From positions 14,421-78,420 of the forward strand of contig JALIBN010000001.1 of assembly GCA_030576275.1 (NCBI GenBank): a stretch of 64,000 nucleotides of DNA. Reading direction: 5' to 3'. Source of the DNA: Pseudomonadota bacterium. Its GTDB lineage: Bacteria; Pseudomonadota; Gammaproteobacteria; Nitrosococcales; Methylophagaceae. The translations under genes and the position numbers were made by a program. The notes under the pieces were generated by a model, which saw nothing but the letters and a program-made list of their open reading frames with translations, was not told the origin of the DNA and did not search any database. Shown one piece after another: positions 14,513 to 48,317 of this stretch. Positions within the stretch are counted from its first letter, which is position 1. Each line of letters starts with the position of its first letter.

Positions 14513-14631
14513 AACGAATACACATTACTAAATCATATCGATAGCATGGCCGAGTGTTTTACTAGGTAATTCATTGAGTCGTTGTGTCCATGACTCTTCT
14601 CCAATCCAATAATAGACTTTCAGGAGCCATG

Positions 14632-14877
14632 ATGAGTGTATTAGTTACTAGCCCAGCCCCAGATTTTACCGCAGCAGCAATAATGCCTGACAACAGCATC
14701 AATGAGAATTTTTCATTGTCAGATTACAAGGGTAAATATATTGTCTTATTCTTTTACCCACTAGATTTTACTTTTGTATGCCCATCTGAAATTATTGCTC
14801 ACCACCACCGTGTTGCTAAATTTGAAAAACGTGGTGTTCAAGTGATTGGTGTTTCTATAGTAATTAGCGTGTTATGA
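14632..14877 (+). pseudogene. Truncated 2-Cys peroxiredoxin (AhpC/TSA)
   Basis: Only 81 residues of an ~200-residue AhpC/TSA peroxiredoxin remain. The N-terminal half is excellent ([11 protein letters not shown], then the peroxidatic region [15 protein letters not shown] with its Cys) up to VQVIGVSI. It then ends abruptly in five non-family residues and TGA. The C-terminal half with the resolving cysteine is missing, yet an intrinsic terminator follows within a few bases. An internal deletion probably joined the middle of the gene to its 3' end. AGGAG 5 bases before ATG 14632 fixes the start. A small expressed product is possible but would lack the resolving Cys. Confidence 0.8.
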
Positions 14878-20411: not shown

Positions 20412-21725
20412 TTAATTGGCCGTGGCATTTTTAGCTAAACATGCCGCACCAAAAGCAGCTTCTGTATGTTCAGCTGAAATGAAAGGTACGAGTATATGTT
20501 GCTGACGGATAGCTTGCCAAACTTGATTAACGGCACCGCCGCCAACTGTTCTGATTGATTTCACTGGCGATGCCCCAGCTTCTTGCAACTTTTGATAAGC
20601 TTGTTGTTCAATTTTTGCCATAGCGGTCAACATGCCATGTAGAAACTCAACATCACTGTTAGGGCGAGGTGATAGCCTAGGCGCTAATTCAGAGTCATTG
20701 ATGGGGAAACGTTCACCTTTAGTCAATAATGGATAGTAATCAGCAACTTGATTGTTTAGTGAGATTAAACTACTAAGCGATTGTAATTCATCATTATTAA
20801 AGAACATATTAAGTACGGCGCCACCCGTATTTGATGCGCCACCGACCAACCATTTATCATCCAAACGGTGGCTGTAAATACCTTGCTCAGGTAAAAAAAT
20901 CGGTGTATCGCTGATCAATTTAACAACCAGTGTTGAGCCCAATGATGTTACTGCATCACCTAATTTATGCGCTCCAGTGGCCAATAAAGCGGCAATACTA
21001 TCTGTTGTACCTGCAACAATTTGGGGTGAGGATGTTAAGTTTAATTGCCTACACAAATCATCAGATAAAAGCCCAATAATAGTTCCCGGCGGCACGACTT
21101 TCGGTAAAACAGCTCGATTGGTCATTAAATCAAGCCAATTTGGCCAACAACGTTCTACCGGATCGTAGCCTGTTTTGAGAGCATTATTTTCATCGCTAAT
21201 GCCTAACGGTGCGCCAAGATTGAAGTTAATCCAATCTGCTTGATGTAATAAATGATTATTTGGAGACTTGGCTAGGTCATTATGCTGTTGCAAATAGACT
21301 AATTTAGCTAGGCCACTGCTAGCACCATGGGCCCCAGATTGAGCTGGAGCAATATCAGCAATCAACTTAGCTTGCTCAATAGCGCGAGCATCGTTATACA
21401 TTAATAGTGGTGTTTGCGGATTACCGAGCTGGTCGGTGATTAATATCGAACCAGAAGTTGCATCAACAGCAATGCTTTTAATTTCATAGCATTGAGACTG
21501 AGAAGATATAGGCAAAATGAGCGAAATAAGGTCAGTTAATACATGTTTTACACATTGCCAGTGATAACTCGGGTCTTGTTCAGAAGTATAACTATCGGAA
21601 TGAGAAGCTTGAAATGCTAAGCGACTGCTAGCAATGATGTTTGAATTATCATCTATGGCAATTGCTCGACACCCTGAGGTGCCGAGGTCAATACCAATGT
21701 AGGCGTTATTATTCATAACGCGCAT
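20412..21725 (-). CDS. FGGY-family pentulose/carbohydrate kinase
   Basis: A 437-residue sugar kinase. The ATPase-fold phosphate-1 motif YIGIDLGTSGCRAIAID is at the N-terminus. VAGTTDSIAALLATG lies mid-protein. The C-terminal adenosine motif VRTVGGGAVNQVWQ is present. It is shorter than xylulokinases (~490) and resembles the compact D-ribulokinase/XK-1-like branch, so phosphorylation of D-ribulose or a related pentulose is plausible. The catalytic Asp neighbourhood is not clearly assignable by eye. Two nearby ATGs (21725 and three codons later) are both possible. It lies 24 bases upstream of cysZ on the same strand. Confidence 0.75.
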   Translation of the reverse strand: MRVMNNNAYIGIDLGTSGCRAIAIDDNSNIIASSRLAFQASHSDSYTSEQDPSYHWQCVKHVLTDLISLILPISSQSQCYEIKSIAVDATSGSILITDQLGNPQTPLLMYNDARAIEQAKLIADIAPAQSGAHGASSGLAKLVYLQQHNDLAKSPNNHLLHQADWINFNLGAPLGISDENNALKTGYDPVERCWPNWLDLMTNRAVLPKVVPPGTIIGLLSDDLCRQLNLTSSPQIVAGTTDSIAALLATGAHKLGDAVTSLGSTLVVKLISDTPIFLPEQGIYSHRLDDKWLVGGASNTGGAVLNMFFNNDELQSLSSLISLNNQVADYYPLLTKGERFPINDSELAPRLSPRPNSDVEFLHGMLTAMAKIEQQAYQKLQEAGASPVKSIRTVGGGAVNQVWQAIRQQHILVPFISAEHTEAAFGAACLAKNATAN

Positions 21726-26579: not shown

Positions 26580-27467
26580 GCGATAGTCAAATCCAAATCA
26601 AGACTTATCAATCTTAACCTCATGAGTGTGTATTTACTTCTTATTATTCTATTTAACATAATATACATTATACGAACCTAAGTTTTACTGAGCAATCAGT
26701 GCCATTTTAGGAAAATATGCGGTGCGCATCATTGTTGTTATGTTAAATACCGTCATTCTAACGGTGATTATGTATGGCTGGTTATTTTGGGGGTTCTTAT
26801 TTAAAACACGTACATTCAGAATTTGAATGTAAACTTACACCTGGTAAACATCCTAGGTAAAACTTAAATTCTGAAATGTAATTCAGCTTTTACATTCTCG
26901 TAGCATTATTTTGTTCTGTTACTAAAAGATCAAAATTAATTATTGCTACTCCTACCTAACAAACAGGAATAACCCAATCTTACATTATTGGGTTTAATGT
27001 AATTCGCCATGGATTTTATCTTTTATGGAGTTAGCCTAAATAATGCTTCAATAATTTGATTGGCCTTCGTTACTTCGTCAATAAGTCGAAATCATAATGG
27101 TTACTTTTCATTACGCAAAGCCTTTATCCAAAATACTTTTAACTTCTTAGGCTGATTATTATCTTTAAAATTGTGGAGCTAGTTTAGGAAATCACTACGT
27201 CTCATCATGTTCAGGCATTTGCTATTGTAATGCTGATTTACTGCTCGTGTCACATTAAAAACTGTTATTTTTCATATAACTAAGTAAACACCGAGTACTA
27301 CGTTTTATTATTACACATAGTTCTGAAGCGTGTTCCCACCCTATCTCTCCCTAAATAAATTATGTATGTAATATCACACTCGAAACGAGTTTTAATTCCT
27401 CAGGCATACCTCTAAATAACTAGATTTAGAGGGTGTTACATCCATTATAAATTCCGATTGGTTTGAA
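26580..27467. other. Gene-poor stretch between yjbQ and the EAL gene
   Basis: About 890 bases of AT-rich sequence without a credible gene. A short plus-strand frame at about 26700-26825 reads as a hydrophobic peptide (VRIIVVMLNTVILTVIMYGW) and may be a membrane-protein remnant. The structured repeat at 26830-27010 lies here. The rest (27011-27467) shows nothing I can assign, although it separates two convergent transcription units. Confidence 0.5.
26830..27010 (+). repeat. Dispersed structured repeat, copy A
   Basis: This ~180-bp block aligns by eye along its whole length with 38382-38572, roughly 70% identical with few gaps. Shared blocks are TAAACTTACA, TAAAACTTAAAT, GCTTTTACATTCT, ACTAAAAG, AACAAACAG and a terminal hairpin. 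Copy A has an AATGTAA/TTACATT stem in its middle and an AACCCAAT/ATTGGGTT hairpin near the end (about 26972-26996). It lies between two convergent genes. It is not coding. Confidence 0.65.
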
Positions 27468-29144
27468 TTAGTGTTTAGATAACAAGTTTAAAATATCATT
27501 TTCTGGCATGGGTTTATGATAATAGTACCCTTGTATTTCATCCACCCCATTTTCCCATAGATACTTGGCTTGAACGGCGGTCTCGACGCCTTCGGCAACT
27601 GTTGTTCTTTTCATATGTCCGGCCATTTCGATAATTGAGTCAACGACTGGATAGTTATCAGCTTCGCCATTAATATCATCAATAAATGATTTATCAATTT
27701 TGATTGATGATACGGGTAGTTGATGAATATATTTCAAGTTAGATTGACCTGTACCAAAATCATCAACTGCAATTTCAAAGCCTAAAGCCACAAGTTCTAT
27801 GAGCCTCGATCTAACCATTTCAATATCTATAGCGATCATCGATTCTGTCAACTCAAAACCCAACAAATAATGAGATACTTTATATTCTTTACAACAGCCA
27901 ATGATCTTGTCGATAAAATCCTTATCTGCAAATTCACGTATACTTAAATTAATATATATCCTAACCCTGTTTTCAGGCTCAAGTTCGGATAATAACTTAC
28001 AAACTCGACGTAAAACATAATGACCAACGTCGATAATTGCCCCCGTTGATTCTGCTACTCTGATGAAGTCACTAAGATATAATAATTTAAAATCAGGATC
28101 TTTCCATCTGAGTAACGCTTCACAAGAGACAATCTTTTTATGATCATTTACTTTCGGCTGGATCGCTATATCTAAGTGATTGAGGCTGAACCCTGATTTA
28201 TTATTCATTTCTGATTTTAGCTTCATTGACAGCGCATCAAGTTCCAATGCATAGTCAATTCCGACATCAGAAGCTTGAGATAATTTGCCGCCATTGCCAT
28301 CACGTCGAGCAGTCTCAAGTGACTTCTCTAGCAATTGCAAGATGCTTTTCTTACTCAAATCTGAAATCGGTCTCCTCATACACACCGCAGTAATTGAAAC
28401 AGGAAGATTTAACGCCTGTCCAATCTCAGGGATAATTGCTGCAATGTCATTCATGCATATCACTCTGTCAGCAGATTCAGTCTCTTCGAGGCTATTTGTT
28501 GATATAATAAGAAATCTATCCCCAGAAACTCGATATGTTGCTGCTTCGTGATTTTGTGCCATTAAGGATATTTTGTGAGCTAAAAGTTTTAGGATGATAT
28601 CACCTGTCTCACGACCAAAAACTGTATTCAATTTTTGAAACTCATCAATATCCAACATGACAGCTGAGACATAGCCATATCGCAATTCAGTGAGCAATAA
28701 TTTCTCAAAATCCAAGCTTAACGCATATCTTGTTCTCAGCTTAGTTAAATCATCATACAGGGCACTATTGAGGACTAGACCCTCCAACTGCTTTATATGT
28801 GATGTGTCTCGTATCACTGCAACATATTTTTTTATATTATCTCTGAACAATTCTGAAAGAAAAATTTCTATCTCTATTTTCTTACCTGATTTTGTTACAG
28901 CGGCTATCTCAGTCCTTTTCCCCATCAGTTTTGACGTATGAGTTGCTTTGTATTTAGCGAGAAATCCGTCATGCTTAGAAGCCATCTCAGGGGGCATTAG
29001 GACTTTAACATTTTGCCCTATAAGTTCGTTATCTTCATACCCAAATAAATTTAGACAATATTGATTTGCTGATGTGATCGTCCCCATCTCATCGCTTATA
29101 ACGACAGCATCTGAAAGCATGTTTAATAATTGCATTGAGCTCAT
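27468..29144 (-). CDS. PAS domain protein with degenerate GGDEF and EAL phosphodiesterase domains
   Basis: A 558-residue cytosolic protein. PAS at ~5-120 (LNMLSDAVVISDEMGTITSANQ), GGDEF-like at ~125-295, EAL at ~310-555. The GGDEF signature is degenerate (RVSGDRFLII), so cyclase activity is unlikely. The EAL residues are complete: CEALLRW, NLSIRE, ELTES, VDDFGTGQSNL, KIDKSFI and AEGVET. It therefore probably hydrolyses c-di-GMP, perhaps with GTP-binding GGDEF control. It is the distal member of the minus-strand signalling locus, 65 bases after the porin gene. Confidence 0.9.
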   Translation of the reverse strand: MSSMQLLNMLSDAVVISDEMGTITSANQYCLNLFGYEDNELIGQNVKVLMPPEMASKHDGFLAKYKATHTSKLMGKRTEIAAVTKSGKKIEIEIFLSELFRDNIKKYVAVIRDTSHIKQLEGLVLNSALYDDLTKLRTRYALSLDFEKLLLTELRYGYVSAVMLDIDEFQKLNTVFGRETGDIILKLLAHKISLMAQNHEAATYRVSGDRFLIISTNSLEETESADRVICMNDIAAIIPEIGQALNLPVSITAVCMRRPISDLSKKSILQLLEKSLETARRDGNGGKLSQASDVGIDYALELDALSMKLKSEMNNKSGFSLNHLDIAIQPKVNDHKKIVSCEALLRWKDPDFKLLYLSDFIRVAESTGAIIDVGHYVLRRVCKLLSELEPENRVRIYINLSIREFADKDFIDKIIGCCKEYKVSHYLLGFELTESMIAIDIEMVRSRLIELVALGFEIAVDDFGTGQSNLKYIHQLPVSSIKIDKSFIDDINGEADNYPVVDSIIEMAGHMKRTTVAEGVETAVQAKYLWENGVDEIQGYYYHKPMPENDILNLLSKH

Positions 29145-29209
29145 TAGAGTCTAAACTTTTTTCTAAATGTGTTACCGAGTATAACACTTTTAGAAATAGA
29201 CTTTATCAT

Positions 29210-30547
29210 TTAGAATGCCCATTGGCTTCTTAGCTGCACGATATCAGGGTGAATTGAATCGAGTGGTCCACCATTCACATCTAAAACATTCATATAGTTC
29301 GCGGAAAACCTTATGGTGTTTGTTGCGAACCAATTAACACCATAAGTGAAACTATCTGCTTTACCCCCCAGAATATCTTGGTCATTGAGATTAATAGTGC
29401 TGTAACGTAATCCAAATTCCCAAGCGCCTATACCGCCCTCACCAACACTAGCTCTAGGCGTTATTTTTCCAAACTTTCCATTTGCGTATTGACGTGATTC
29501 CCCTGTAAAGAAGTAGCCTGTTTGAATATACCAACTATCAAAATCTAAACTTTGAGTACTATTACGACTCACCGATGTAGTAACATATTCTGACTGAACG
29601 GAGAGCGGGCCAGAGACCATCGCTACTTCAAACCCATATTTTGAATGAGAATCTACATCGGTCATATTTCCTGTATCGACAATATTTATTCCAGACACAT
29701 CACTTTCAGGCTGCTGTTTAAACCGTAATATAGCCGCTTCGCCGGCATCACGATAATTAGCTGATACTGCTAAATGTAATAATGATCCTTTGTTATTAAT
29801 TGGTGCATATGAAATCCGGCTTCCAAGTCCCCAGCCTTCATCATTTGCACCACCTACGGTTTGTACTGCTTCGCCAAACAAGCCAGCGGATGCTGTCCAA
29901 TTTTTTCTATTGGTGAATGCCATCGCACCTATATGACGCCCACTATTAAGGCCATTTGTAAGTGAGCGTTCCATGAATAAGTTATAGTTTGCATTCATTT
30001 GAAATTGCAGACTGAAAGGATCTTTCATGTTACCGACTCTGAATGACATTGCATCTAAGCCTCGATATTCAACAAATGCATCTGCGATACCTTTATTGTG
30101 ATCGGTCGCAAAATCATATTCAAATTTATACCCCCAATCATGATACATTTTTCCTTCTACAGACATGCGGGCACGCCTGATCTTTGTACCATCGCCCATG
30201 GTGTTATTATCATTCCCATAAGCGGCGGCATCAGCCATTACACGTGCCCCTAGTTTTGTTGTAAAAGCGCCATCTCGTGTTTTAACCGTGACACCACCTT
30301 TCACTGACACCTCGACATCTGAAGGTCGTGTTGCTTGTGCTAGTTGATTTTGTAGGGCTGATTTTTCTTGATTATTTTGTTCCTGCCGCTGGTTTAGCTC
30401 GGCTTGTAAACGACCATATTGTGCCTCACTGATCATGCCATTTTCATGTAACATACCTATTAATGTTTCAATTTCTGAACTTGCATTAACCGGCAGTCCA
30501 ATAGCGAGTAGAACAGTACCAATAAGTATTGTTTTTTTTAGTTTCAT
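29210..30547 (-). CDS. OprP/OprO-family outer-membrane porin
   Basis: A 445-residue protein with a clear signal peptide (KKTILIGTVLLAIGLPVNAS) and a short N-terminal coiled coil (residues ~28-68, GMISEAQYGRLQAELNQ). A beta-barrel follows with ARMSVEGKMYHDWGYKFEYDF and FRVGNMKDPFSLQF and the aromatic C-terminus QWAF. These are features of the phosphate-selective OprP/OprO trimer porins. Beside a PhnD-like binding protein and two kinases, it could admit the sensed oxyanion through the outer membrane. Anion specificity is an inference. A 126-base gap separates it from the HD-GYP gene, so it may have its own promoter. Confidence 0.88.
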   Translation of the reverse strand: MKLKKTILIGTVLLAIGLPVNASSEIETLIGMLHENGMISEAQYGRLQAELNQRQEQNNQEKSALQNQLAQATRPSDVEVSVKGGVTVKTRDGAFTTKLGARVMADAAAYGNDNNTMGDGTKIRRARMSVEGKMYHDWGYKFEYDFATDHNKGIADAFVEYRGLDAMSFRVGNMKDPFSLQFQMNANYNLFMERSLTNGLNSGRHIGAMAFTNRKNWTASAGLFGEAVQTVGGANDEGWGLGSRISYAPINNKGSLLHLAVSANYRDAGEAAILRFKQQPESDVSGINIVDTGNMTDVDSHSKYGFEVAMVSGPLSVQSEYVTTSVSRNSTQSLDFDSWYIQTGYFFTGESRQYANGKFGKITPRASVGEGGIGAWEFGLRYSTINLNDQDILGGKADSFTYGVNWFATNTIRFSANYMNVLDVNGGPLDSIHPDIVQLRSQWAF

Positions 30548-30673
30548 AATAATATTCCAGTGGTTGATAACACTAAGTTACACGTTAATTTCACATGACT
30601 TTTACATTTAAATGGCACATATTTTCCCAAGAACAGTGGTAAGGATTACTGTTTGGTTTATTTAACAAAATGG

Positions 30674-31467
30674 TCAAAATGATAAAAGAGCTGTTGTTTT
30701 TAAGCTGTGATGGTTAATAGTATTTCGTAATTGAATCATTTCATCACTAATGGCTAAAGATGTATCGGTAATAAATGGGCAAATATATTTGCCTCTTCCA
30801 TCTTCAAGTATAGATAAGACGACACAATCTGGGAGTGCAGGTACATAGCAGCGATCCATAGTTAAAGCATCGAAAACATCTACTATTGCTACGATTCTTG
30901 CACTCATTGGAATTTGAGAAGCCTTTAACCCGTAAGGGTAGCCTGATCCATCCCATTTTTCATGGTGACACAGCGCGATTTCTCTCGCCATTTCCATCAT
31001 TGGGTCATCTGATTGCGAAAGAATGTCACCGCCGTAATTAGGGTGTTTACGCATGACCTCCCATTCTGAATCGTTCAAAGGACCTGGTTTTTTAATATAC
31101 TGTCGGGGATGCCAATTTTCCCAACATCATGCATAGGACTTGCTAGATTAATTAATTTACAAAACTCATCATCCATGCCTAATGATTTTGCGACCAATTG
31201 TGAAAAGTGAGCTATTCTTGTGACGTGAACAGCGGTATCGTCATCTTTGTAAGCGGCTGCTTTTTGCAAGCGTGCGAAAGAATCACTGCGTGAAAGTGAT
31301 TGATTAGTTTTTTGATGTGCCAAGCACAATTGTTGCAAATAATCTGAATAACGATTGAACAATTTAGTAATAAAAGCATTATCACGCTTAAGACTAACGA
31401 TCTCAGTAAATAAGTCGTTCTGTGATTTCCAGATCGAAATATCTAACGGATTGTATATAGTGGACAT
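30674..31467 (-). pseudogene. HD-GYP c-di-GMP phosphodiesterase split by a -1 frameshift
   Basis: Two abutting reading frames make one HD-GYP protein. The first (31467 to 31075, 130 aa) has an N-terminal helical region and HVTRIAHFSQLV ... SPMHDVGKIGIPDSILKN. The second (from about 31090 to 30674) has MRKHPNYGGDILSQ, CHHEKWDGSGYPYGL and ARIVAIVDVFDALT. HD and GYP motifs thus fall on different frames. The break is at TTA AAA AAC CAG (about 31089-31100), a six-A tract. One more A, or -1 slippage on A-AAA-AAC, restores the family sequence. The C-terminal third is also eroded (the usual FDP is CPF). Pseudogene is the simplest reading; recoding or sequence error remain possible. Confidence 0.75.
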
Positions 31468-31476
31468 ATTTAAGTT

Positions 31477-31833
31477 TTATACATGTGATAATAAGTCTAA
31501 AGGACTAAAAGGTTTAGTTATATAAACATCTGCACCAGCTTGATATCCCTGATCAATGTCTGCCTTTTGGCTCATTGCCGACAATAAGATAACTTTAGTC
31601 GCTGAATTTGCTATATTCGATTTAATCTTTCTACATAGTTCTAGTCCATCAAATTGTCCTGGCATCATGATGTCTAAAATTATTACATCAGGCTTCACCA
31701 CAGGAATCATCTTCATAGCATCATCGCCGTCCTGAGCTTCAAATAAATCATAATCACTCAATTCTAATGTCATTCGTATTAACGCTCTCAATTCTTTATT
31801 GTCATCGACAATTAAAATTCGTTTTGCATGCAT
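31477..31833 (-). CDS. Stand-alone response-regulator receiver protein
   Basis: 118 residues, a single REC domain with nothing after it. Acid pair D10-D11, phosphoacceptor D54 in VIILDIMMPG, switch S85 and K107 in YITKPF are all present. It starts 3 bases after the stop of the upstream HAMP-PAS kinase, whose end contains its GAGGAG ribosome binding site. This tight coupling makes that kinase its likely partner. Downstream by 9 bases is the HD-GYP gene. A REC protein next to an HD-GYP protein resembles RpfG split into two chains. Confidence 0.92.
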   Translation of the reverse strand: MHAKRILIVDDNKELRALIRMTLELSDYDLFEAQDGDDAMKMIPVVKPDVIILDIMMPGQFDGLELCRKIKSNIANSATKVILLSAMSQKADIDQGYQAGADVYITKPFSPLDLLSHV

Positions 31834-31836
31834 TTG

Positions 31837-33927
31837 TTACTCCTCGATGTGTTCGATCAAGATAGTTATAGGTAGCCAAACGATTACCATTGTGCCCTTG
31901 CCAATGGTGCTCGTAATATCTAATTGTCCATTATGTATTTTTACAAACTCTTTAGTTAAACTTATTCCTAATCCTGTGCCAGCTATATTTCCGGTTTTAT
32001 CAGCCCTGTAAAATCTCTCACCTACATGAGATAATTCATTCGGAGTCATTCCAATACCAGTATCTTCAATTATCACTCCAAATACTGATACCCCATCAGC
32101 CATTCGAATGGCTGTAGAAACCATTATTTTCGAGCTTTTTGGTGAATATTTAAAAGCATTACTTAAGATATTACTGAAAATCTGACGTATTTTGGATGGG
32201 TCAAATTCAACGGTAGGCCAGTGTGCTGGCTTTTGAAAATCAATAAAGTGATAATCATCAGAGGCAGATATATCAATAATTAGTTCGGTTAGAACCGCCT
32301 CTAATGTGCCTTGTTGCATATCAAACGCGCCCATAGCTCGGTCTTCGATACGAGCAATATCTAATAGATCATCTAATAACGCTTTAAGGCGCACTGCTTG
32401 TCTATTTATATTTGACGCAATTTCTTTTGTTTTTTCTGGATTGTAGTCACGAATACTTAATAATTCACTAAAGCCCATCACACTCGCTAAGGGGGTACGC
32501 AACTCATGTGCCGCAGTCGACAGAAATTCACTTTTCATTCGGTCTACAATCGTTTCATGGGTAATATCAACGAAAAACAATATGTCTGAAGCGTTATTAT
32601 CATTTTTGTCTATTTTTTGACGCGTGACTCGCACTATTTTTTCTTCAGGTAGTTTTAAATAAAGCGTCTCTGGAGTTGATTGCTTTTCTAGTAACGTCAG
32701 ATCTATATGATGGTCAGAATCTAAAATTGTTGTTAAAAAATCCTTGAAACAAGGCCAGTCATGTGCTTCTTTACAAGCCTCTGGTGTTGTGTTGAATATT
32801 GAATAAAAAGCCTTATTCACATATGAAATATTTTGGTCGTTTGCAACAATTAAAAAACCATTTTCACTTAAGTCAAACACCGCTTCTAGTTCGTGTTCGA
32901 GTTCATCGATAAGAGTTAGATCACGTATTACGCCGACAATAAACTGTTCATTATTAAAATACGTCATACTAGAATGAATTTCTAATCGAATTTTTTTACC
33001 TCGTGATGTCATTGCAGTAGCAAGTTGTACATTTTTACTAAGGTCATTTAGTTTCCAATATTTGTAGTCCGGAATAAAACCACCCATATTCTGACCAATA
33101 ATATCCTTACCTTTATAATCAAATAGGATAAATGCCGCTTGATTTACACTCTGAATCTGGCCATCTAGGCTAATCATGAAAATAGAGTCCGTAGCTGTAT
33201 TCATTACTGCGTCCATACGGCTGTTATCAAAATGCAATTTCTCAGTAACGTCTGCAATTTTACTCGACATAATATTAAAAGCTTTCGATGCTTCTGTTAC
33301 TTCATCAGTGCCTTTCAGAGGAATCTGCAAACCGATCTCACCTTGAGATAACTTTACAGCCGCCTCTTTTAATAATATTAGACGTTTTGTTAGCATTATT
33401 CCAAGTAGCAATGAAAATAATGCTACGAATATCAGTTCTATTACAGCGATGATAACTAATTTATTCGTCGCGTTATCAATGGTCGCCTTTTGGTCAACTA
33501 TAGAAAATCCTACCTCAACTGAGCCAAATTTATAGCCTTCAACTAAAATGTCTGAAGACGCATCAAATGAACCATCGGTTTCACTTAAATCGATACTGTA
33601 ATCGCCCTCAAAATCACGTTTTAACAAGGCTTGGTCGCCTCGCTGCACTAACATGCCATCTAAGTCTATCATCTTGATATAGAGCATATTTGAATTTGAC
33701 ATCGCGGAGTCTGCGATTGACTCAAGTGTAGCCATATCCTTAGAAATTAGGGCATCTAGACTTGCTATCGCTAATAATGAGGAGACACTGTCCGCGTAAT
33801 CTTTAATATCTTTTTCAAGTGAGCTTTGTAATATAGCTCGACTATTTAAAACCAAGATCAATAGAAAAAAAGCTTCGATGATGGCTATACCAATAATAGT
33901 TTTGTATTTGAATGAGAGTTTAAACAT
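31837..33927 (-). CDS. Membrane histidine kinase with HAMP and PAS domains
   Basis: 696 residues. TM1 at ~10-30, a periplasmic sensor at ~31-165, TM2 at ~165-187, HAMP at ~185-235, PAS at ~240-360 and a second PAS-like at ~365-465. HisKA carries the phosphoacceptor His in STAAHELRTPLASVMGFSEL (~480). HATPase_c follows with N box SNILSNAFKYSP, G1 EDTGIGMTP and G2 GTGLGISLTKEF. All catalytic boxes are intact. Its first base overlaps the last of the PhnD-like gene, so the binding protein is probably its periplasmic ligand-sensing partner. It feeds the REC protein encoded 3 bases downstream. Confidence 0.93.
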   Translation of the reverse strand: MFKLSFKYKTIIGIAIIEAFFLLILVLNSRAILQSSLEKDIKDYADSVSSLLAIASLDALISKDMATLESIADSAMSNSNMLYIKMIDLDGMLVQRGDQALLKRDFEGDYSIDLSETDGSFDASSDILVEGYKFGSVEVGFSIVDQKATIDNATNKLVIIAVIELIFVALFSLLLGIMLTKRLILLKEAAVKLSQGEIGLQIPLKGTDEVTEASKAFNIMSSKIADVTEKLHFDNSRMDAVMNTATDSIFMISLDGQIQSVNQAAFILFDYKGKDIIGQNMGGFIPDYKYWKLNDLSKNVQLATAMTSRGKKIRLEIHSSMTYFNNEQFIVGVIRDLTLIDELEHELEAVFDLSENGFLIVANDQNISYVNKAFYSIFNTTPEACKEAHDWPCFKDFLTTILDSDHHIDLTLLEKQSTPETLYLKLPEEKIVRVTRQKIDKNDNNASDILFFVDITHETIVDRMKSEFLSTAAHELRTPLASVMGFSELLSIRDYNPEKTKEIASNINRQAVRLKALLDDLLDIARIEDRAMGAFDMQQGTLEAVLTELIIDISASDDYHFIDFQKPAHWPTVEFDPSKIRQIFSNILSNAFKYSPKSSKIMVSTAIRMADGVSVFGVIIEDTGIGMTPNELSHVGERFYRADKTGNIAGTGLGISLTKEFVKIHNGQLDITSTIGKGTMVIVWLPITILIEHIEE

Positions 33928-34736
33928 TATGGGTTTGATTCTTTGATATTGAGTTGCCTAACATCATCCCAATCACTATCAACACTAATCTTAATGCCAC
34001 CATTAAAACCTAAATCATTAAGAATCTTTTTACCTTCATCTAACTCATTTAATGAAATTAAGGCATTCTGAATGCTAGTAGCATCTTCTTGACTCACACT
34101 TGGACCTACTGCGAAAGCATGGGGTGTATAGGGCGATGAGCGCCAGATTACTTTTAGTTTATTGAATAAATCAATTGGCAAATTAGATAATGTACGATCG
34201 ATTCCTCCGCCGGCGACAAAAAAACCTTTTGCAACATTTTCATAGACAGAATCATGTGAAGACACGTACCTTGATGTGAAAGGTATATGTTTCAGTGTTA
34301 AATTTGCTTGCGGTAACATCGTTGCAGCAAATGATTTTGGTGAAGGAAAAGCAATTTCTGCATTATTTAACATTTCTAAACTCGATATTTCACTATCTCG
34401 TGCTACGACAATAATACCCACAATACTCTTACTGGCTTGTCTTGCTATGGCACGCAGTCCTAACGTTTTACTAAATACAGTGTAATGATACGGATTTAAG
34501 TAAGTGATATCATACGCACCGTTACTTACTCGTTGTTCAAACTCTGGGATATTGGGTGCAGTTTCAAAACGAATTTCTTTACCTGTTTTTTCTGATAAAA
34601 ATTTAGCCAATGGCACCCATACTTTAGCTAAACTAGCGGCTGATTGTTGAGGTACTATGCCTAGCCTTAGTAACTCTTCAGCGTGTGTCATATTGGTAGC
34701 AAACACGATGGTTAATAATAGTATGATCTTTTTCAT
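33927..34736 (-). CDS. PhnD-like periplasmic oxyanion-binding protein
   Basis: A 269-residue protein of the phosphate/phosphite/phosphonate-binding (PhnD, periplasmic-binding type 2) family. Signal peptide KKIILLLTIVFATNMTHA, then LRLGIVPQQSAASLAKVWVPLAKFLSEKTG, YDITYLNPYHYTVF and the long family domain. No ABC permease or ATPase gene is near; instead it is sandwiched between two histidine kinases with overlaps of 1 base and a gap of 2. This layout matches AioX-AioS-type systems, where a PhnD-like protein senses arsenite for a kinase. The ligand here could be phosphate, phosphonate, arsenite or another small anion. Confidence 0.88.
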   Translation of the reverse strand: MKKIILLLTIVFATNMTHAEELLRLGIVPQQSAASLAKVWVPLAKFLSEKTGKEIRFETAPNIPEFEQRVSNGAYDITYLNPYHYTVFSKTLGLRAIARQASKSIVGIIVVARDSEISSLEMLNNAEIAFPSPKSFAATMLPQANLTLKHIPFTSRYVSSHDSVYENVAKGFFVAGGGIDRTLSNLPIDLFNKLKVIWRSSPYTPHAFAVGPSVSQEDATSIQNALISLNELDEGKKILNDLGFNGGIKISVDSDWDDVRQLNIKESNP

Positions 34737-34738
34737 GC

Positions 34739-35833
34739 TTAAAAATCCTTAGGATTTTTCATGGCAAGCTCTTTCTTGAGTATTGCAAGATCAGCGGCAT
34801 AGAGCTTGGCTTGTTTTAAGCCATCTAGCTCGTTTACTTGATTCGTGCTTCCTAATGGAAGTTCAATAATGATTGTTTGATAGCCATTGCTAGATATCTG
34901 CTTAAGATTACCCCCGTGCAATTGCACGACACGATGTGCTAAAAATAAATTAAAATTTAGACTGTTTTCCACATCATCATATGTTGGTGGTTTAAGTTCA
35001 CTGCCTTCTTGTTGTAAGTTATGAAAATTAAGAGGATTCATCACCGGTGTATTGGTGATTTTGATGGTTGCAAAATAGCCATGTAGATGGATTTTGACTT
35101 TAATTTCATCTTTATCTTTAGCATTACGCATCACTTCTCTCATTGACTCTCTGACTGCGAGCAATAACCAATCTCTACTACCGTATATGTTACTCACTTC
35201 AGAACCTGTGGTTTCAATTTTTACAGATAAAGATTTCTTGTTAATTAAGGTGTCTAATCTCTCAATGGCAACGTTTAACAAGCTTAAGACAGGTATTTTT
35301 TGCTTAGTTTGGATATCTTGATCGGTGTAGAGATCACCTAACATTTTTATTTTAAATACAGAATCCATCAACTCGGAGCCATTGTCTAGTGTGTTATTCA
35401 ATAACTCTTTAATTTTATTAGTGATCTTTATGTCACGTATTGACTCCAACAGTAGTTCAGTGCTGAAGTAAAGATCATTTAGTGGTTTTTCTAATTCATC
35501 TTTTAGTAACAGCATCAGTCGATGTTTCAATATCCCAACATGGTTTTTAGAATTATGAGATAAAAAAAGTAACATGAAAAATGATTGGAATGGCATGATT
35601 TTAACTTCAAAATCAGAACCTATTCCTAGGTCATCATTGAGTTGTAATACTACTGGCGTATCAATTTCCTTATCTAATATTTGGTGAAGACTTTGCTGAA
35701 AATCTCTCGACCCAATCTTAGATATATCATTTGTTATGGATAAAGCCTTGGCTGCTTTATTTGAATAGCTGTGAAGCCCGCTCTGATCAATAAGTATAAT
35801 GGGATCAGATATGTCATCAAAAATATGTATCAT
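34739..35833 (-). CDS. Soluble PAS/histidine-kinase-like protein
   Basis: 364 residues with no TM segment. PAS-like N-terminus (FDDISDPIILIDQSGLHSYSNKAAKAL), a helical central region (RLMLLLKDELEKPLNDLYFSTELLLE, ~100-150) and a C-terminal HATPase-like fold (ESMREVMRNAKDKDEI; later NLFLAHRVVQLHGGNL). The dimerisation helix lacks an obvious H-E-x-x-x-P phosphoacceptor, and the G1 box is poor, so it may be a degenerate kinase or a phosphotransfer/anti-kinase partner. It starts inside the stop of the upstream HTH-REC gene (4-base overlap) and precedes the PhnD-like gene by 2 bases. Confidence 0.78.
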   Translation of the reverse strand: MIHIFDDISDPIILIDQSGLHSYSNKAAKALSITNDISKIGSRDFQQSLHQILDKEIDTPVVLQLNDDLGIGSDFEVKIMPFQSFFMLLFLSHNSKNHVGILKHRLMLLLKDELEKPLNDLYFSTELLLESIRDIKITNKIKELLNNTLDNGSELMDSVFKIKMLGDLYTDQDIQTKQKIPVLSLLNVAIERLDTLINKKSLSVKIETTGSEVSNIYGSRDWLLLAVRESMREVMRNAKDKDEIKVKIHLHGYFATIKITNTPVMNPLNFHNLQQEGSELKPPTYDDVENSLNFNLFLAHRVVQLHGGNLKQISSNGYQTIIIELPLGSTNQVNELDGLKQAKLYAADLAILKKELAMKNPKDF

Positions 35834-36507
35834 TGCTTGATTCCTATATTTTTTTCATTCGCTTTCTCAAAAACAATACTTTTCAATCGTTGAAATGGAA
35901 TGGGCTTTTCCATAATGGAAATGGTTTCTGGAAAATGAGATCTTTTTTGAATCTCCTCCTGAGATAAGCCGGTTACAACTACAATCTTGCAATCTGCTAA
36001 ATTTTCATCTGAGCTAAGCACGTCAATCAAATGAAAACCATCGCCATTTGGCATAAGTAAGTCAGTGATAATTAAATCGGGGGTTGATCTGCCAGCTACT
36101 AGAAGCGCTTCATAACCATCATTAACCATCAATAGCTCGATTTGAGGATGCCACTCTTCTATATTCAAACGATATAGCATTCGAAGCGAAGAATCATCTT
36201 CAGCAATGAGTATCGTAAACTTATTATTTCTATTATTTGCTTTGTTTTCCAGCTCGCGATGTGTATCTGTATCTGTATCTGTAGAGCGCCTTAACTTGCC
36301 GAGAGGCTTATTGTTCATGCTAATACTCAATCGTTCAACTTCAGCTTTACTTATTCTTCTATGTCCGCCAGGCGTTTTCGAAACATTAATAATGCCGCTG
36401 TCTGCCCACATTTGTACCGTTCGTCCAGTAACACCAAAGAGCACCGCTACTTCTTGAGTGGTATAGGGTTTTGTTGATAGTTCATCTAATTTATTTTTGT
36501 TGGTCAT
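35830..36507 (-). CDS. DNA-binding response regulator with N-terminal MerR/excisionase HTH and C-terminal receiver domain
   Basis: 225 residues. HTH of the MerR/excisionase type at ~14-62 (YTTQEVAVLFGVTGRTVQMW ... TPGGHRRISKAEVERL). A low-complexity linker at ~66-93 contains a DTDTDT run from a TATCTG hexamer tandem at about 36263-36284. A REC domain at ~97-215 has acids E103-D105, phosphoacceptor D149 (LIITDLLMPNGDG) and a KP motif near the end. The domain order is opposite to typical OmpR/NarL regulators. AGGAG lies 7 bases before the ATG. As first gene of the locus, with repeats just upstream, it is the likely autoregulator. Confidence 0.9.
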   Translation of the reverse strand: MTNKNKLDELSTKPYTTQEVAVLFGVTGRTVQMWADSGIINVSKTPGGHRRISKAEVERLSISMNNKPLGKLRRSTDTDTDTHRELENKANNRNNKFTILIAEDDSSLRMLYRLNIEEWHPQIELLMVNDGYEALLVAGRSTPDLIITDLLMPNGDGFHLIDVLSSDENLADCKIVVVTGLSQEEIQKRSHFPETISIMEKPIPFQRLKSIVFEKANEKNIGIKQ

Positions 36508-36524
36508 AGTCTCGCTCCTGAGTC

Positions 36525-36558
36525 TTCCGGTATTTCTGATATTTCTGATATTTCCGGA
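36525..36558. promoter_or_regulatory. Tandem 9-mer repeats upstream of the signalling locus
   Basis: TATTTCTGA (36531-36539), TATTTCTGA (36540-36548) and TATTTCCGG (36549-36557) run head to tail, bounded on both sides by TTCCGG (36525-36530 and 36552-36557). They lie 18-50 bases upstream of the first start codon of the locus. Position and phasing suit an operator for the HTH-REC protein, but binding is inferred. Confidence 0.45.
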
Positions 36559-36873
36559 TTGTAACGTTTTAATAATGTGTTGTAAACATAAGTTAAGAGA
36601 GATATGACAAGGAATAATTTAATTATTAATCGATATGTTAACAATCTGTATATGATGATGATTATTATATGGAAGGGTATTTTTAGTAGTATTAGAGGAA
36701 CAAATGTTTTAGAAAATATATTTTTTGTACTTTAACGCTGACGCTGCAATGCTAATGATGATTCTCACTCACGTTTGTCGTGGTTCAGCAAGACGGTCAT
36801 CATAATTTCTACAGGCTACTTGTATCATAGAGAACTTTCTTCGGTTTCAATAGCTAAAGAGTAGATCGCTAGA

Positions 36874-38135: not shown

Positions 38136-38583
38136 AAAGAAAAAAGCTCCAAGAAAGTATTTATCAGTAACTACATTCGTAACAAACTGATAATAATGCA
38201 GTTTACAAATTTTGGCATCATTTTATTCCTGATTACTTTCCCAAATTTGTCTCTACGGATGTGGGATCATACTCTATTTATTTATTAGCTAAGCAGAATA
38301 GATTGAGATGCTAATATCTGCTCTGAGTAAGACAGGATAGTTTTGGAGGTACTTATAAAAATTATGTATTCAGGTTTTAAATCTAAACTTACATTTGCCA
38401 CATCAATTTAGATAAAACTTAAATACTGCAAAGTAATTTGGCTTTTACATTCTTGCAGTATTTTTTGTTTTTGACTAAAAGAACAAAAATAATTCTTACT
38501 AATCATTCATAACAAACAGTATAAAACCAAACTTATATCACTCGGTTTTATATGGTTCGTCATATCGTTTGTCCGTTATAAAT
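38136..38583. other. Intergenic region carrying repeat copy B
   Basis: About 450 bases. The left third should hold the promoter of the DUF4197 gene. The remainder from 38382 is copy B of the dispersed repeat. No gene was seen. Confidence 0.5.
38382..38572 (+). repeat. Dispersed structured repeat, copy B
   Basis: About 190 bases collinear with copy A at 26830-27010 and in the same orientation. Copy B forms an ACTGCAA/TTGCAGT stem (about 38425-38461) around TAATTTGGCTTTTACATTC, and a terminal AAAACC/GGTTTT hairpin (about 38523-38550). It ends 12 bases before the stop of the sugar-phosphorylase remnant. Confidence 0.65.
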
Positions 38584-39003
38584 TTACGGTGTATTAGTAA
38601 TCCACAATATTTGATATGGTTCTAGACTAATAAAATCATTGGTTTCATTAAAGTCGATACCTGAGATTAAATCTCGCCAGTTATCGGTGACAATTAAATT
38701 TAAGTCACTTAGTAATAAAGGCTGTGTTTCATTGCTGATGTTATACACGCAGAAAATACTTTGTCTTCGATCTATACTTTGTCGCCAAAAGCCAAAAAGC
38801 TTATTTGTTAAGTGTAAGGTAAATTGCGTTGCATTGGGGTGAAATGCTTTTTGTTGTTTACGCGTTTCGATGAGCTCTTTTAACTGGTCATAGACTATGG
38901 CATGTTGGGATTCTTGATCATTCAATTTGGCTTTAAGGGCATCATAATCCCATTGATGGCGGTTAATTGACCGGTTTTGCTCGGTATTTGATGCTTCTTC
39001 AAT
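38584..39003 (-). pseudogene. C-terminal remnant of a sucrose-phosphorylase-like GH13 enzyme
   Basis: Read on the minus strand from about 39000: NTEQNRSINRHQWDYDAL, then YDQLKELIETRKQQKAFHPNATQF, then a beta-rich end (FGFWRQSIDRRQSIFCVYNI) finishing with QILWITNTP. The RSINR and R-x5-AFHPNATQ blocks and the C-terminal sandwich belong to bacterial sugar phosphorylases of GH13 subfamily 18. Only ~135 of ~550-600 residues remain. Homology stops at about 39000, exactly where a plus-strand molybdo-hydroxylase fragment begins. Confidence 0.75.
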
Positions 39004-39820
39004 GAATCAAATGCCAATGGAAGTCGCCATGGGTGTGGTTAATGTGCCCTTTGATGTGCCCAATATTCAACTTGAAAACCCCGCGGCTGCCCCACACACG
39101 CGTATTGGTTGGTACAGATCAGTAGCTAATATTCCACATGCGTTTGCTGTTCAGTCCTTCATCGCCGAAATGGCAAATCATGTTGGTAGAGATCACAAAG
39201 AATTTCTACTTGAATTGATTGGTAAAGATCGAAAGATTGACCCTAAAACATTACGTGATGAATGGAATTATGGTGAATCGCCAGAAGATTACCCGCTTAA
39301 TACAGGGCGAATGCATGCCGTCATCGAACATGTGACCAATAAAGCAAATTGGGGCAAAAAAATGGCTACTAATAGTGGTCAAGGACTTGCAACACATTAT
39401 AGTTTCACAAGTTATGTGGCTACCGTTGTTGAAGTTGCGATTGTCGGTGACGGTGAAGTGACCGTACCACGTATTGATATTGCCATTGATTGTGGCCCAC
39501 AAGTTAATCCAGAGCGCATTCGTTCACAAGTTGAAGGTGCCTGCGTGATGGGTGTCAGTCTTGCTTTATATAGTGAGATTAGTTTTACCAATGGTGTAGC
39601 TGATCAAAATAACTTTGATGGCTATGAAGTGGCCAGAATGAATAATGGCCCTATGGAGATTCACGTCCACATTATGCCCACAACTGATTATGATGCGCCG
39701 CTGGGTGGTGTTGGTGAGCCCGGTATGCCGCCTATTGCGCCTGCATTATGCAATGCTATCTTTGCTGCTACAGGCAAACGTATACGTGCATTACCAGTAC
39801 GTTACCAATTGGAGTCATAG
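39002..39820 (+). pseudogene. C-terminal third of an IorB-type molybdenum hydroxylase large subunit
   Basis: 272 residues matching the end of isoquinoline-1-oxidoreductase/aldehyde dehydrogenase beta subunits. Landmarks are GWYRSVANIPHAFAVQSFIAEMA, SYVATVVEVAI, IDIAIDCGPQVNPERIRSQVEGACVMG and the active-site Glu motif [20 protein letters not shown]. The native protein is ~730 residues with a signal peptide; about 460 residues and the small 2Fe-2S subunit are missing. An ORF starting MNQMPMEVAMG exists but cannot bind the cofactor fully. It abuts xdhC with no gap (TAG then ATG), showing the former operon. Confidence 0.8.
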
Positions 39821-46605: not shown

Positions 46606-48317
46606 GCTGATGAACTTGCTGAGATGCAAATGAACGCTGATAATTGGGTGATGCCCGCTAGCAACTACAATAATCAACGATATAGCAAACTATATGAAAT
46701 CAGTGAGAATAACATCCAGAACCTGAATCTAGCGTGGTCGTTTTCTACCGGTGTATTACGTGGTGACGAAGGTAATGTGTTGGTTATCGTCGACACGATG
46801 TACGTTCACACGCCATTTCCTAACATGGTTTTTGCTCTTGATTTAAACAACCATGGCGCTATTAAATGGAAATATCAACCCACACAAAGCTACGATGAAA
46901 CGCTACCAGTTATGTGCTGTGACACCGTTAACCTTGGTTTAGCCTATGGCGATGGCAAAATATTTTTAAATCAAGCCGACACTACTTTAGTTGCGTTGGA
47001 TATGAATACGGGACAACTTATTTGGTCTGATAAACGTGATAATCCTAGACGCGGTGCTACCAGTACCGGTGCCGCTTTTGTAATGAAAGATAAAGTCCTA
47101 GTGGCTATCTTAGGCAGTGAGTTTGGCATTAGAGCTTACGTGCAGGCCTATGGTTTAGGGGAGGAAAGACTATGGCGAGCATATAGCACGGGGCCAGACA
47201 CTGACATGTTAATTGACCCTGCTAAAACCAGTTGGCCATGATTCATCATTAAAAAGCTGGCAAGGTGAACAATGGCAAATCGGCGGCGGTTCCACTTGGG
47301 GCTGGTTTTCGTATGACCCTGATCTGAATATGTTTTACTATGGCAGTGAAATCCTTCTACTTGGTACCCTATTCAACGTCCAGGTGATAACAAATATTCG
47401 GTCGTGGTTTAGATACCGGTGTGGCGAAATGGATCTACCAAATGACGCCTCATGATGAGTGGGATTATGATGGTGTCAACGAAATCATCTTGTCAGATCA
47501 AAAACTGAAAGGCAAAATGCACAAAACAGCGGTGCATTTGGACCGTAACGGCTGGGCCTACACGATGGACAGACTTTCAGGTGAGTTGCTAGTTGCACAA
47601 AAATTTTATCCATCGGTCAATTGGGCGAGCAGTATCAATATGAAGACGGGTTATCCAGAACGCGTCGTCAAATATTCACCTGACTATAACGGTGAAGATA
47701 TGATTACCACTGATATATGTCCGGCCGCATTAGGTTCCAAAAATCAACAGCCCGCTGTTTATTTACCTCGTACGGGGCTTTATTATGTCCCTACCAACCA
47801 TTTATGTATGGATTATGAACCATTTGAAGTTGAGTATGACTCAGGTCAACCCTATGTTGGTGCTTTTTTAAATATGTACCCCGCTCCTGTTGGCATGTAC
47901 TTAGGCAACCTCATTGCTTGGGATGCACGTGTCGGTATGATTGTATGGTCTAATCCAGAACGATTCTCAATATGGTCTGGAGCCTTAGCAATGGCTTCAG
48001 ATCTGCTATTTTACGGCACGCTTGAAGGCTATTTGAAAGTAGTTGATGCTAAAACAGGTCGTGAGCTGTGGCGATTCAAAACAGCATCAGGCATCATCGG
48101 TAATGTCAATACATACAAACATGCGGATAAGCAGTATATTTCTATTCTTTCAGGCGAAGGTGGCTGGGCCGGAATTGGTATGATGATGCCAAGCTTGGAT
48201 AAAGATTCAGATGGTGATGGCGTTGTTGGCGCTTACCGAGCACTATCTAGCTGGACGAACTTGAGTGGAGTTCTACGTGTGTTTAGCTTGCAACATAATA
48301 TAGTTAATTCCAACTAA
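46606..48317 (+). pseudogene. XoxF-type (lanthanide) PQQ methanol dehydrogenase, frameshifted
   Basis: Three frames together span almost the whole XoxF catalytic chain. Frame 1 (to ~47225): WVMPASNYNNQRYSKL, TFSTGVLRG-like FSTGVLRGDEGN, then PVMCCDTVN with the adjacent-Cys pair at 46915-46920. Frame 2 (to ~47350): [20 protein letters not shown]. Frame 3 (from ~47421): [72 protein letters not shown] keeps the extra Asp (47469-47471) that marks lanthanide enzymes; Ca-type MxaF has Ala there. At least three shifts and a small loss near 47400 kill it. No xoxG/xoxJ partners follow. Confidence 0.88.

Follow-up and report, generated by a model that had tools for sequence, protein, structure and literature searches.

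The window analysed here is a 64,000-nucleotide stretch of a Methylophagaceae genome (GenBank assembly GCA_030576275.1, contig JALIBN010000001.1, positions 14,421 to 78,420). Between positions 27,468 and 36,507 it holds a signalling cluster that encodes, in order of transcription, a response regulator with a helix-turn-helix (HTH) and a receiver domain (HTH-REC), a kinase-like protein (HK1), a PhnD-like periplasmic binding protein, a membrane histidine kinase (HK2), a lone receiver (REC), HD-GYP sequences, a porin and an EAL protein. With moderate confidence we favour the view that it would form a modular, self-regulated phosphorelay acting on cyclic di-guanosine monophosphate (c-di-GMP) with an exchangeable input. 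Input and output appear to have been inherited as modules of their own, and the boundary between them falls inside HK2. We consider this boundary, together with a conserved array of 9-base-pair (9-bp) direct repeats ahead of the HTH-REC gene, to be the most valuable results. The locus is interesting and partly ordinary, and the assembly put forward in the original prediction, made from the window alone, is right in outline and wrong in several details.

Input and output modules

The best same-family and best foreign BLAST scores, taken among the fetched loci, separate the cluster into two parts. On the input side the family and foreign scores are 83 and 275 bits for the PhnD-like protein, 77 and 120 for HK2 residues 1-175, and 35 and 55 for residues 176-235. 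Residues 236-340 are uninformative at 42 and 47 bits. Further into the HK2 core the order is reversed, with 45 bits in the family and no foreign match for residues 341-455 and 242 against 123 bits for residues 456-696, and the same holds on the output side for REC (143 and 89), HTH-REC (181 and 129) and HK1 (124 and 38). In a sensor tree of 20 rows, which omits weak and short sensor matches, the HK2 sensor groups with 15 foreign rows and apart from four g3 rows (100/100), and in a core tree of 49 rows the HK2 core groups with family rows (97/83 and 96/88). A PhnD tree of 52 rows splits four g3 PhnD rows from the present protein at 100/100, with a long-branch warning. Finally, a genome of the same genus (G012) carries HTH-REC, HK1, kinase, REC and HD-GYP in identical order with no PhnD, and the N-terminus of its kinase is longer, of membrane type, without HAMP and with no match to the HK2 sensor. 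Because of these score contrasts, the discordant trees and the unrelated sensor of G012, it is well supported that one output module has changed its input at least once. The output side (HTH-REC, pseudokinase, kinase core, lone REC and HD-GYP) is common to relatives, and the input groups with foreign systems.

The kinase motifs of HK2 are intact, including AHELRTP around the phospho-accepting His and the N and G boxes DTGIGM and GTGLG. Its sensor half was predicted with a mean predicted local distance difference test score (pLDDT) of 78.2, and the model finds its best crystal match in CdgS9, a LapD orthologue, with the periplasmic output domain of that protein (Z 11.3, root-mean-square deviation 3.9, 120 aligned), followed by CitA and WalK. 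We read the predicted sensor as a Cache/PAS-like fold and draw no ligand from the model.

An HTH-REC match at E 2.5e-26 or better occurs in 15 of the 57 family genomes, own genome included, and seven family loci (L059-L065) were read as clusters. Three of these (L059, L060 and L061) show the order HTH-REC, PhnD, kinase, and L062 has HTH-REC and kinase without PhnD. The order HTH-REC, HK1 homologue, kinase, lone REC is seen in L064, where HD-GYP and another REC follow, and in L065, where another REC follows. L063 has a PhnD-kinase pair about 4.5 kb from a REC/HTH-REC/kinase set. A lone REC stands directly after the kinase in L059, L061, L062, L064 and L065. This cluster is missing from the other 13 family loci, each of which has an HTH-REC gene or a match to PhnD. 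The original prediction had linked all eight genes; for the core genes the order does repeat in relatives, so the arrangement is more than chance. The porin and the EAL gene, which had been counted as members, are in none of the seven family clusters (0/7), and L060 and L063 have other EAL-containing open reading frames (ORFs) nearby.

At the level of the class, 25 of 369 genomes have an HTH-REC match at E 1e-25, and 19 of the 20 loci fetched for these matches were kept after filtering. A kinase gene lies within one or two genes of HTH-REC in 11 of the 19. In three, an H-NOX-like gene stands between HTH-REC and the kinase (L132 by Pfam HNOB, L133 and L136 by likeness of the first residues), and L130 has HTH-REC, a hybrid kinase, PhnD and a kinase in a row. 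From these kinase and H-NOX neighbours it follows that this kind of HTH-REC often partners differing sensors, the present locus being one instance.

HTH-REC, its repeat array and HK1

The array lies directly 5' of the HTH-REC gene, one base past the promoter-like -10 element, and reads CGGAAATAT-CAGAAATAT-CAGAAATAC followed by CGGAA. Arrays of four such units plus a partial one occupy the same place in G012 and G027, ahead of HTH-REC proteins 47% identical to this one, and all three copies read in the genus therefore have the array. Two or more adjacent units were found nowhere else in 1,834,508 bases of 227 loci, overlapping loci being counted repeatedly. A promoter-like site precedes the array here and in L065; the one here is a consensus match only, in a scanned region with 37 such sites against 46.3 in shuffles.

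The period of nine was examined more widely by taking the best tandem period of 6-15 in the 150 nucleotides upstream of 31 HTH-REC genes, ties being split. Period 9 is best in 16.6 of these 31, against 48.2 of 289 controls and 28.6 of the 170 controls with an intergenic upstream. Its score beats shuffles at 0.05 in 12 of the 31 (25/289 controls, 14/170 intergenic controls) and reaches at least 9 in eight (6/289 and 4/170). The array is probably an operator through which HTH-REC would control its own promoter. Rfam gave no matches (0), and the two-unit pattern had many matches in viral contigs, of the kind that so short a pattern would yield by chance, which is uninformative.

Likeness to BldC of Streptomyces points the same way as to unit length. 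The best solved matches of the HTH include chains 6amk and 6ama, beside an equal-scoring cobalamin-binding protein; the structure table calls the two only putative DNA-binding proteins, and we take them to be BldC because they differ by the L43M and L58M described for BldC. In a mapping anchored on W31 and H46, BldC W31, H46, R47 and R48 correspond to W34, H49, R50 and R51 of HTH-REC, and the wing G47 G48 H49 R50 R51 (GGHRR) and W34 are invariant in nine aligned HTH-REC proteins. The NCBIfam BldC model NF033787 scores 54.7 bits, below its cut-off of 77. As far as the accessible text describes it, a BldC protomer binds one 9-bp direct repeat, the wing reading the AT-rich part and Arg30 a C-G pair (PMC5859096), and BldC is, by the abstract, 68 residues without a receiver. 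HTH-REC resembles BldC in its HTH and in the kept wing and Trp, and its upstream array of period 9 may correspond to the 9-bp direct repeats of BldC; it differs in having a receiver and in M33, which replaces Arg30.

The second gene does not support the dual-kinase description given at the outset, since HK1 (34739-35833) has D at the phospho-accepting His position and no recognisable G boxes. No Pfam family matches it at E 0.001; only weak PAS and HATPase matches appear (E 0.003-0.008). Its homologues are similar in this respect, with N at that position in G012 and no His there in G027, and the three copies are homologous by single BLAST comparisons (E 2e-32, 5e-13 and 1e-5). A motif, Q-x3-YAxD, after the degenerate ATPase region is kept in all three pseudokinases (34790-34813 at the HK1 C-terminus, and in L064 and L065). 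A single-sequence search with HK1 found four of the 369 class genomes including its own, the other three at 18-20 bits, and a three-row profile matches 60 of 369 at E 1e-6, two of them in its own genus. The other profile matches were not counted as homologues, being at most 58 bits and looking like ordinary kinases. A single-sequence structure prediction of HK1 had a mean pLDDT of 41.6 and was not used.

As a tentative generalisation, HTH-REC proteins of the class might be phosphorylation-switched BldC-type proteins, the receiver governing how the winged HTH assembles head to tail on 9-bp arrays at their own promoters; in the present lineage the pseudokinase and kinase core would be kept with them and the input cassette exchanged.

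The PhnD-like protein and its ligand

The PhnD-like protein (PF12974, 183.8 bits) most likely works as a sensor partner, since it is the sole PF12974 protein found in its genome, no PhnE permease exceeds its cut-off there (best TIGR01097 match 20.9 bits against 216.7), and its closest relatives precede kinases or c-di-GMP enzymes. The claim that it comes without a transporter therefore stands. PF12974 is named for ABC transporter subunits and TIGR01098 matches the protein, under cut-off, at 70.1 of 112 bits; a transporter subunit lying by chance among signalling genes is nevertheless very improbable in view of the lack of a PhnE permease above cut-off, the single PF12974 protein found and the conserved pairing with signalling genes.

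This pairing is seen well beyond the family. A scan of genome contigs found three relatives at 42-54% identity (Neptuniibacter, Ferrimonas and a metagenome-assembled genome of Methylococcales), each with a membrane hybrid kinase directly downstream. A four-row PhnD profile matches 72 of 369 class genomes, own included, at E 1e-28. Of the 36 regions fetched, 4 are flanks, and the others hold 32 of the 35 matches with the highest scores in genomes other than the own one, G208:C312, G057:C53 and G165:C46 being left out. In 28 of the 32 loci (L190-L221) PhnD is directly followed, on the same strand, by a gene for a kinase or for a GGDEF or EAL protein; domain searches identified 25 of these neighbours, and Pfam the other three (L208, L215, L221). 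The proportion describes the best-scoring matches and may differ for more distant ones. The remaining four comprise L199 and L202, with a CheA-like hybrid gene directly upstream, L198, whose PhnD-adjacent ORF lies at a contig edge and has no Pfam match, and L205, with a DUF4261 neighbour. The PhnD neighbour matches the HK2 sensor half in 16 of 32 loci, 13 of them scoring at least 60 bits and the other three 16-18 bits, mostly over HAMP. An HD-GYP gene adjoins divergently in L190, L191 and Neptuniibacter. In L201, L204, L206, L214-L216 and L218-L221 the PhnD-like gene directly precedes a gene for a GGDEF and/or EAL protein, and in L201, L204 and L206 that neighbour shares the sensor domain of HK2, a kinase-free route from binding protein to c-di-GMP. 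As the closest relatives mostly sit with signalling genes, annotation as a phosphonate transporter likely misleads.

A further question is what the protein binds. The original prediction proposed an oxyanion-sensing relay, with AioX-AioS as the known model and perhaps an effect on porin supply. Such a system of the AioX/ArrX kind would sense arsenite, arsenate or phosphate, and the OprP-type porin would supply phosphate. Some evidence agrees with this idea: ArrX (E 1.6e-11), PtxB (2.8e-9) and AioX (5.9e-7) are relatives among solved structures, AioX-type proteins partner kinases in signalling (accessible part of PMC5908839), the AioX-AioS and ArrX-ArrS systems likewise pair a PhnD-fold periplasmic protein with a membrane kinase (here HK2, directly downstream), and a Porin_O_P gene lies downstream. 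The pocket argues otherwise. The AioX residues Y88, C106, Y131, S161, S163, H192 and D210, named in the accessible text of PMC5908839, were compared through HMMER alignments with ArrX and PtxB; the first six align with I63, N81, I105, S135, A137 and H161, and D210 was not confidently placed. Only S135 and H161, two of the six alignable residues, are kept, and the AioX cysteine is Asn. H161 is invariant in the protein and three close homologues, in which position 135 reads S, A, A, S (Ala in two of the three homologues). The best-scoring solved structure is a phosphonate-transport binding protein, the porin was not found with the cluster in relatives, and the outputs differ from those of AioX-AioS and ArrX-ArrS. 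Because most pocket residues are replaced, a ligand of the AioX kind is unlikely on present alignments, and we regard the oxyanion system as a whole as improbable.

Outputs, genomic setting and proposed circuit

Every gene of the locus lies on the minus strand at the positions first given (Table 1), and domain searches agree with the domains first called: HTH_17 and REC; PF12974; HAMP-PAS-PAS-HisKA-HATPase; REC; HD; Porin_O_P; and EAL. Overlaps or gaps of 1-4 bases, said to run over most of the locus, hold for the first five genes, from HTH-REC to REC, and not beyond. HTH-REC and HK1 overlap by 4 nucleotides, HK1 and PhnD are 2 apart, PhnD and HK2 overlap by 1, HK2 and REC are 3 apart, and the gaps then widen to 9 (REC to HD-GYP), 126 (HD-GYP to porin) and 65 (porin to the EAL gene).

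Table 1. Features of the cluster and of the region upstream of it, with positions in the window
Feature	Position	Strand	Remark
Promoter-like site TTTACA-17-TACAAT, 5' of the HTH-REC gene	36558..36586	-	10/12 consensus matches
9-bp direct-repeat array, three full CRGAAATAN units (36530-36556) and a partial fourth; probable operator	36521..36556	-	same unit, same place in L064 (G012) and L065 (G027)
HTH-REC response regulator: N-terminal BldC/MerR-like winged HTH, C-terminal receiver, conserved D149 and K201	35830..36507	-	
HK1 pseudo-histidine kinase: weak PAS-like N-terminus, degenerate dimerization/histidine phosphotransfer (DHp) and ATPase regions, without phospho-accepting His	34739..35833	-	homologues in L064 and L065
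PhnD-like periplasmic binding protein (PF12974), probable sensor partner	33927..34736	-	
HK2 membrane histidine kinase: sensor half (residues 1-235, Cache-like by model, then HAMP), two PAS, HisKA (H474), HATPase	31837..33927	-	
Lone receiver domain, phospho-acceptor D54 by motif	31477..31833	-	
HD-GYP gene part 1 (HD motif), ahead of a one-base frameshift in an A-run	31075..31467	-	
HD-GYP gene part 2 (GYP motif), different frame	30674..31078	-	
Porin_O_P family porin (PF07396, 224.7 bits); neighbour, outside the conserved module	29210..30547	-	
PAS - degenerate GGDEF (SGDRF) - EAL protein, EAL motifs kept; outside the conserved module	27468..29144	-	

The HD-GYP gene had been taken as intact, and here the prediction fails: it is two ORFs in different frames, the first stopping just past the HD motif and the second carrying the GYP motif. 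In G012 it is a single open frame of 267 amino acids. Sequencing error may lie behind the frameshift. Indel errors are not rife, as none of the eight genes compared in a 9.6-kb block shared with G016 (91% identical) shows a net frame-changing indel, and the small gaps in one of its genes (20412-21725) sum to multiples of three. A programmed frameshift is not supported; the A-run resembles a slippery site, but the G012 copy is a single open frame. We rejected the reading that the lone REC is a fragment of a broken REC-HD-GYP gene (same frame, with TAA between), because lone RECs follow the kinase in the five family clusters listed above and REC and HD-GYP are separate in G012. The arrangement of a receiver followed by HD-GYP resembles the RpfG-type REC-HD-GYP proteins, and differs in being two separate genes both here and in G012, and in the frameshift here.

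The protein first described as PAS-EAL does have PAS and EAL domains; its full set is PAS-GGDEF-EAL, with SGDRF replacing GGDEF, and the EAL motifs EALLR, DFGT and KIDKSF are present. Several of the 24 EAL matches in its genome (G000) are incomplete or broken by stop codons or changes of frame, one of them at a contig edge; the broken matches, on contigs C9, C10, C12, C28, C29 and C32, may mean loss of c-di-GMP enzymes. Among the fetched loci compared, no homologue of the porin was found.

Synteny with G016 and G010, the nearest relatives examined by YjbQ identity (G016 being 88% complete), stops at about 26,680, just before the cluster, with other genes beyond; both genomes lack any close HTH-REC and any match to PhnD at E 0.001. 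The cluster is flanked by an imperfect direct repeat (about 212 bp, 75% identical) at 26785-26995 and 38341-38548, and no further copy was found in the genome. In G012 the module lies, by eye, between rsmI-like and mraZ/mraW-like genes beside the cell-division cluster. Elsewhere in the window we noted, also by eye, an apparent pyrroloquinoline quinone (PQQ)-type alcohol dehydrogenase broken over three ORFs (46624-48317), an apparently truncated peroxiredoxin ORF (14584-14877) and an oxidoreductase large-subunit-like fragment (39002-39820).

The frameshift could instead be the first lesion of an outgoing signalling cluster in a genome that is shedding accessory genes. Other seemingly broken accessory genes in the window, the several partial or interrupted EAL matches, and the lack in G016 and G010 of the cluster at this site, of a PhnD match and of a close HTH-REC all agree with such decay. 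Against it, the frames of HTH-REC, HK1, PhnD, HK2, REC, porin and EAL are all open, the array is kept, and the eight genes of the G016 block are free of net frame-changing indels. We regard decay as unlikely, and return to the favoured reading, a modular phosphorelay.

In such a relay the PhnD-like protein would bind a periplasmic ligand and, as the conserved pairing suggests, dock on the Cache-like sensor of HK2. HK2 would relay the signal via HAMP and PAS to its kinase core, autophosphorylate on H474 and, to judge from intact motifs and conserved order, phosphorylate the lone REC and HTH-REC. Unphosphorylated HTH-REC, multimerised head to tail on the 9-bp array of its own promoter, would repress the operon, and phosphorylation would free it from the array. 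Repression and release are suggested by the array, by BldC and by HnoC, which phosphorylation releases from DNA (accessible text of PMC12471899). HK1 might tune HTH-REC as a scaffold or phosphatase, which is a guess. The lone REC would act in trans on the separate HD-GYP phosphodiesterase where the gene for it is intact, and the EAL protein may be, again as a guess, the remaining phosphodiesterase of the locus. Given the frameshift in HD-GYP, any c-di-GMP output of the present locus would fall to the EAL protein.

Several points weigh against this circuit. Ligand, phosphotransfer and repression are all inferred from sequence. The HD-GYP gene is in only one of seven other family clusters (L064) and this EAL gene is in none. 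The g3 clusters lack the array at this position, four of six g3 upstreams having a TTG-N4-CAA palindrome there instead, and the promoter scan found no site before the L064 array. When all ten periods are taken jointly, six of 31 upstreams pass 0.05 (the window, L064, L065, L136, L137 and L133), three of them of the own genus. The 31 genes also include kin (three of the own genus, three of one H-NOX genus and two near-identical), and for that reason no P value is claimed. The base-reading Arg30 of BldC aligns with M33, a position at which the nine aligned HTH-REC proteins have M, L or I. Lastly, the g3 PhnD/sensor pairs may, given their long branches, be fast-evolving kin rather than separate acquisitions.

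Two known systems are instructive. The original prediction knew no named system that combines both HD-GYP and EAL outputs with a reversed-domain regulator. The lack of a named parallel is doubtful, as the Hno network of Shewanella shares the branching and three HTH-REC genes adjoin H-NOX or H-NOX-like genes. In the accessible parts of the reports on Shewanella oneidensis, HnoX-HnoK/HnoS signalling splits among HnoB, HnoC and HnoD, which are an EAL enzyme, a transcription factor and a degenerate HD-GYP protein (PMC6335343; PMC8738867). Our link to HnoC runs only through the H-NOX neighbours of the HTH-REC genes in L132, L133 and L136, not through sequence. The HTH of HnoC is at the N-terminus. 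The present locus differs in that its sensor is a PhnD-like protein with a Cache-like kinase in place of H-NOX (the ten locus proteins scanned gave no HNOB match), in the added pseudokinase, and in HD-GYP and EAL proteins without REC, the former frameshifted, whereas HnoB and HnoD are response regulators. NspS-MbaA of Vibrio cholerae, as far as the accessible sources describe it, is similar in that a periplasmic binding protein signals through a membrane c-di-GMP enzyme; it differs in that its binding protein is for polyamines and in that a kinase intervenes here, though some PhnD relatives directly precede GGDEF-EAL proteins. Among the papers listed, titles and abstract starts on PhnD-like sensors with c-di-GMP, N-terminal HTH response regulators, pseudokinases and BldC with response regulators, subscription papers being mostly outside reach, contain no description of this combination.

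The analysis provides testable predictions, namely that a response regulator of an uncommon kind has a specific operator sequence and a conserved pseudokinase as partner, and it offers a natural example of a c-di-GMP circuit with differing input and retained output. If the proposed reading is true, one c-di-GMP output circuit would have been re-plugged to new ligands by means of a contiguous cassette made up of the binding protein and the sensor half of HK2.

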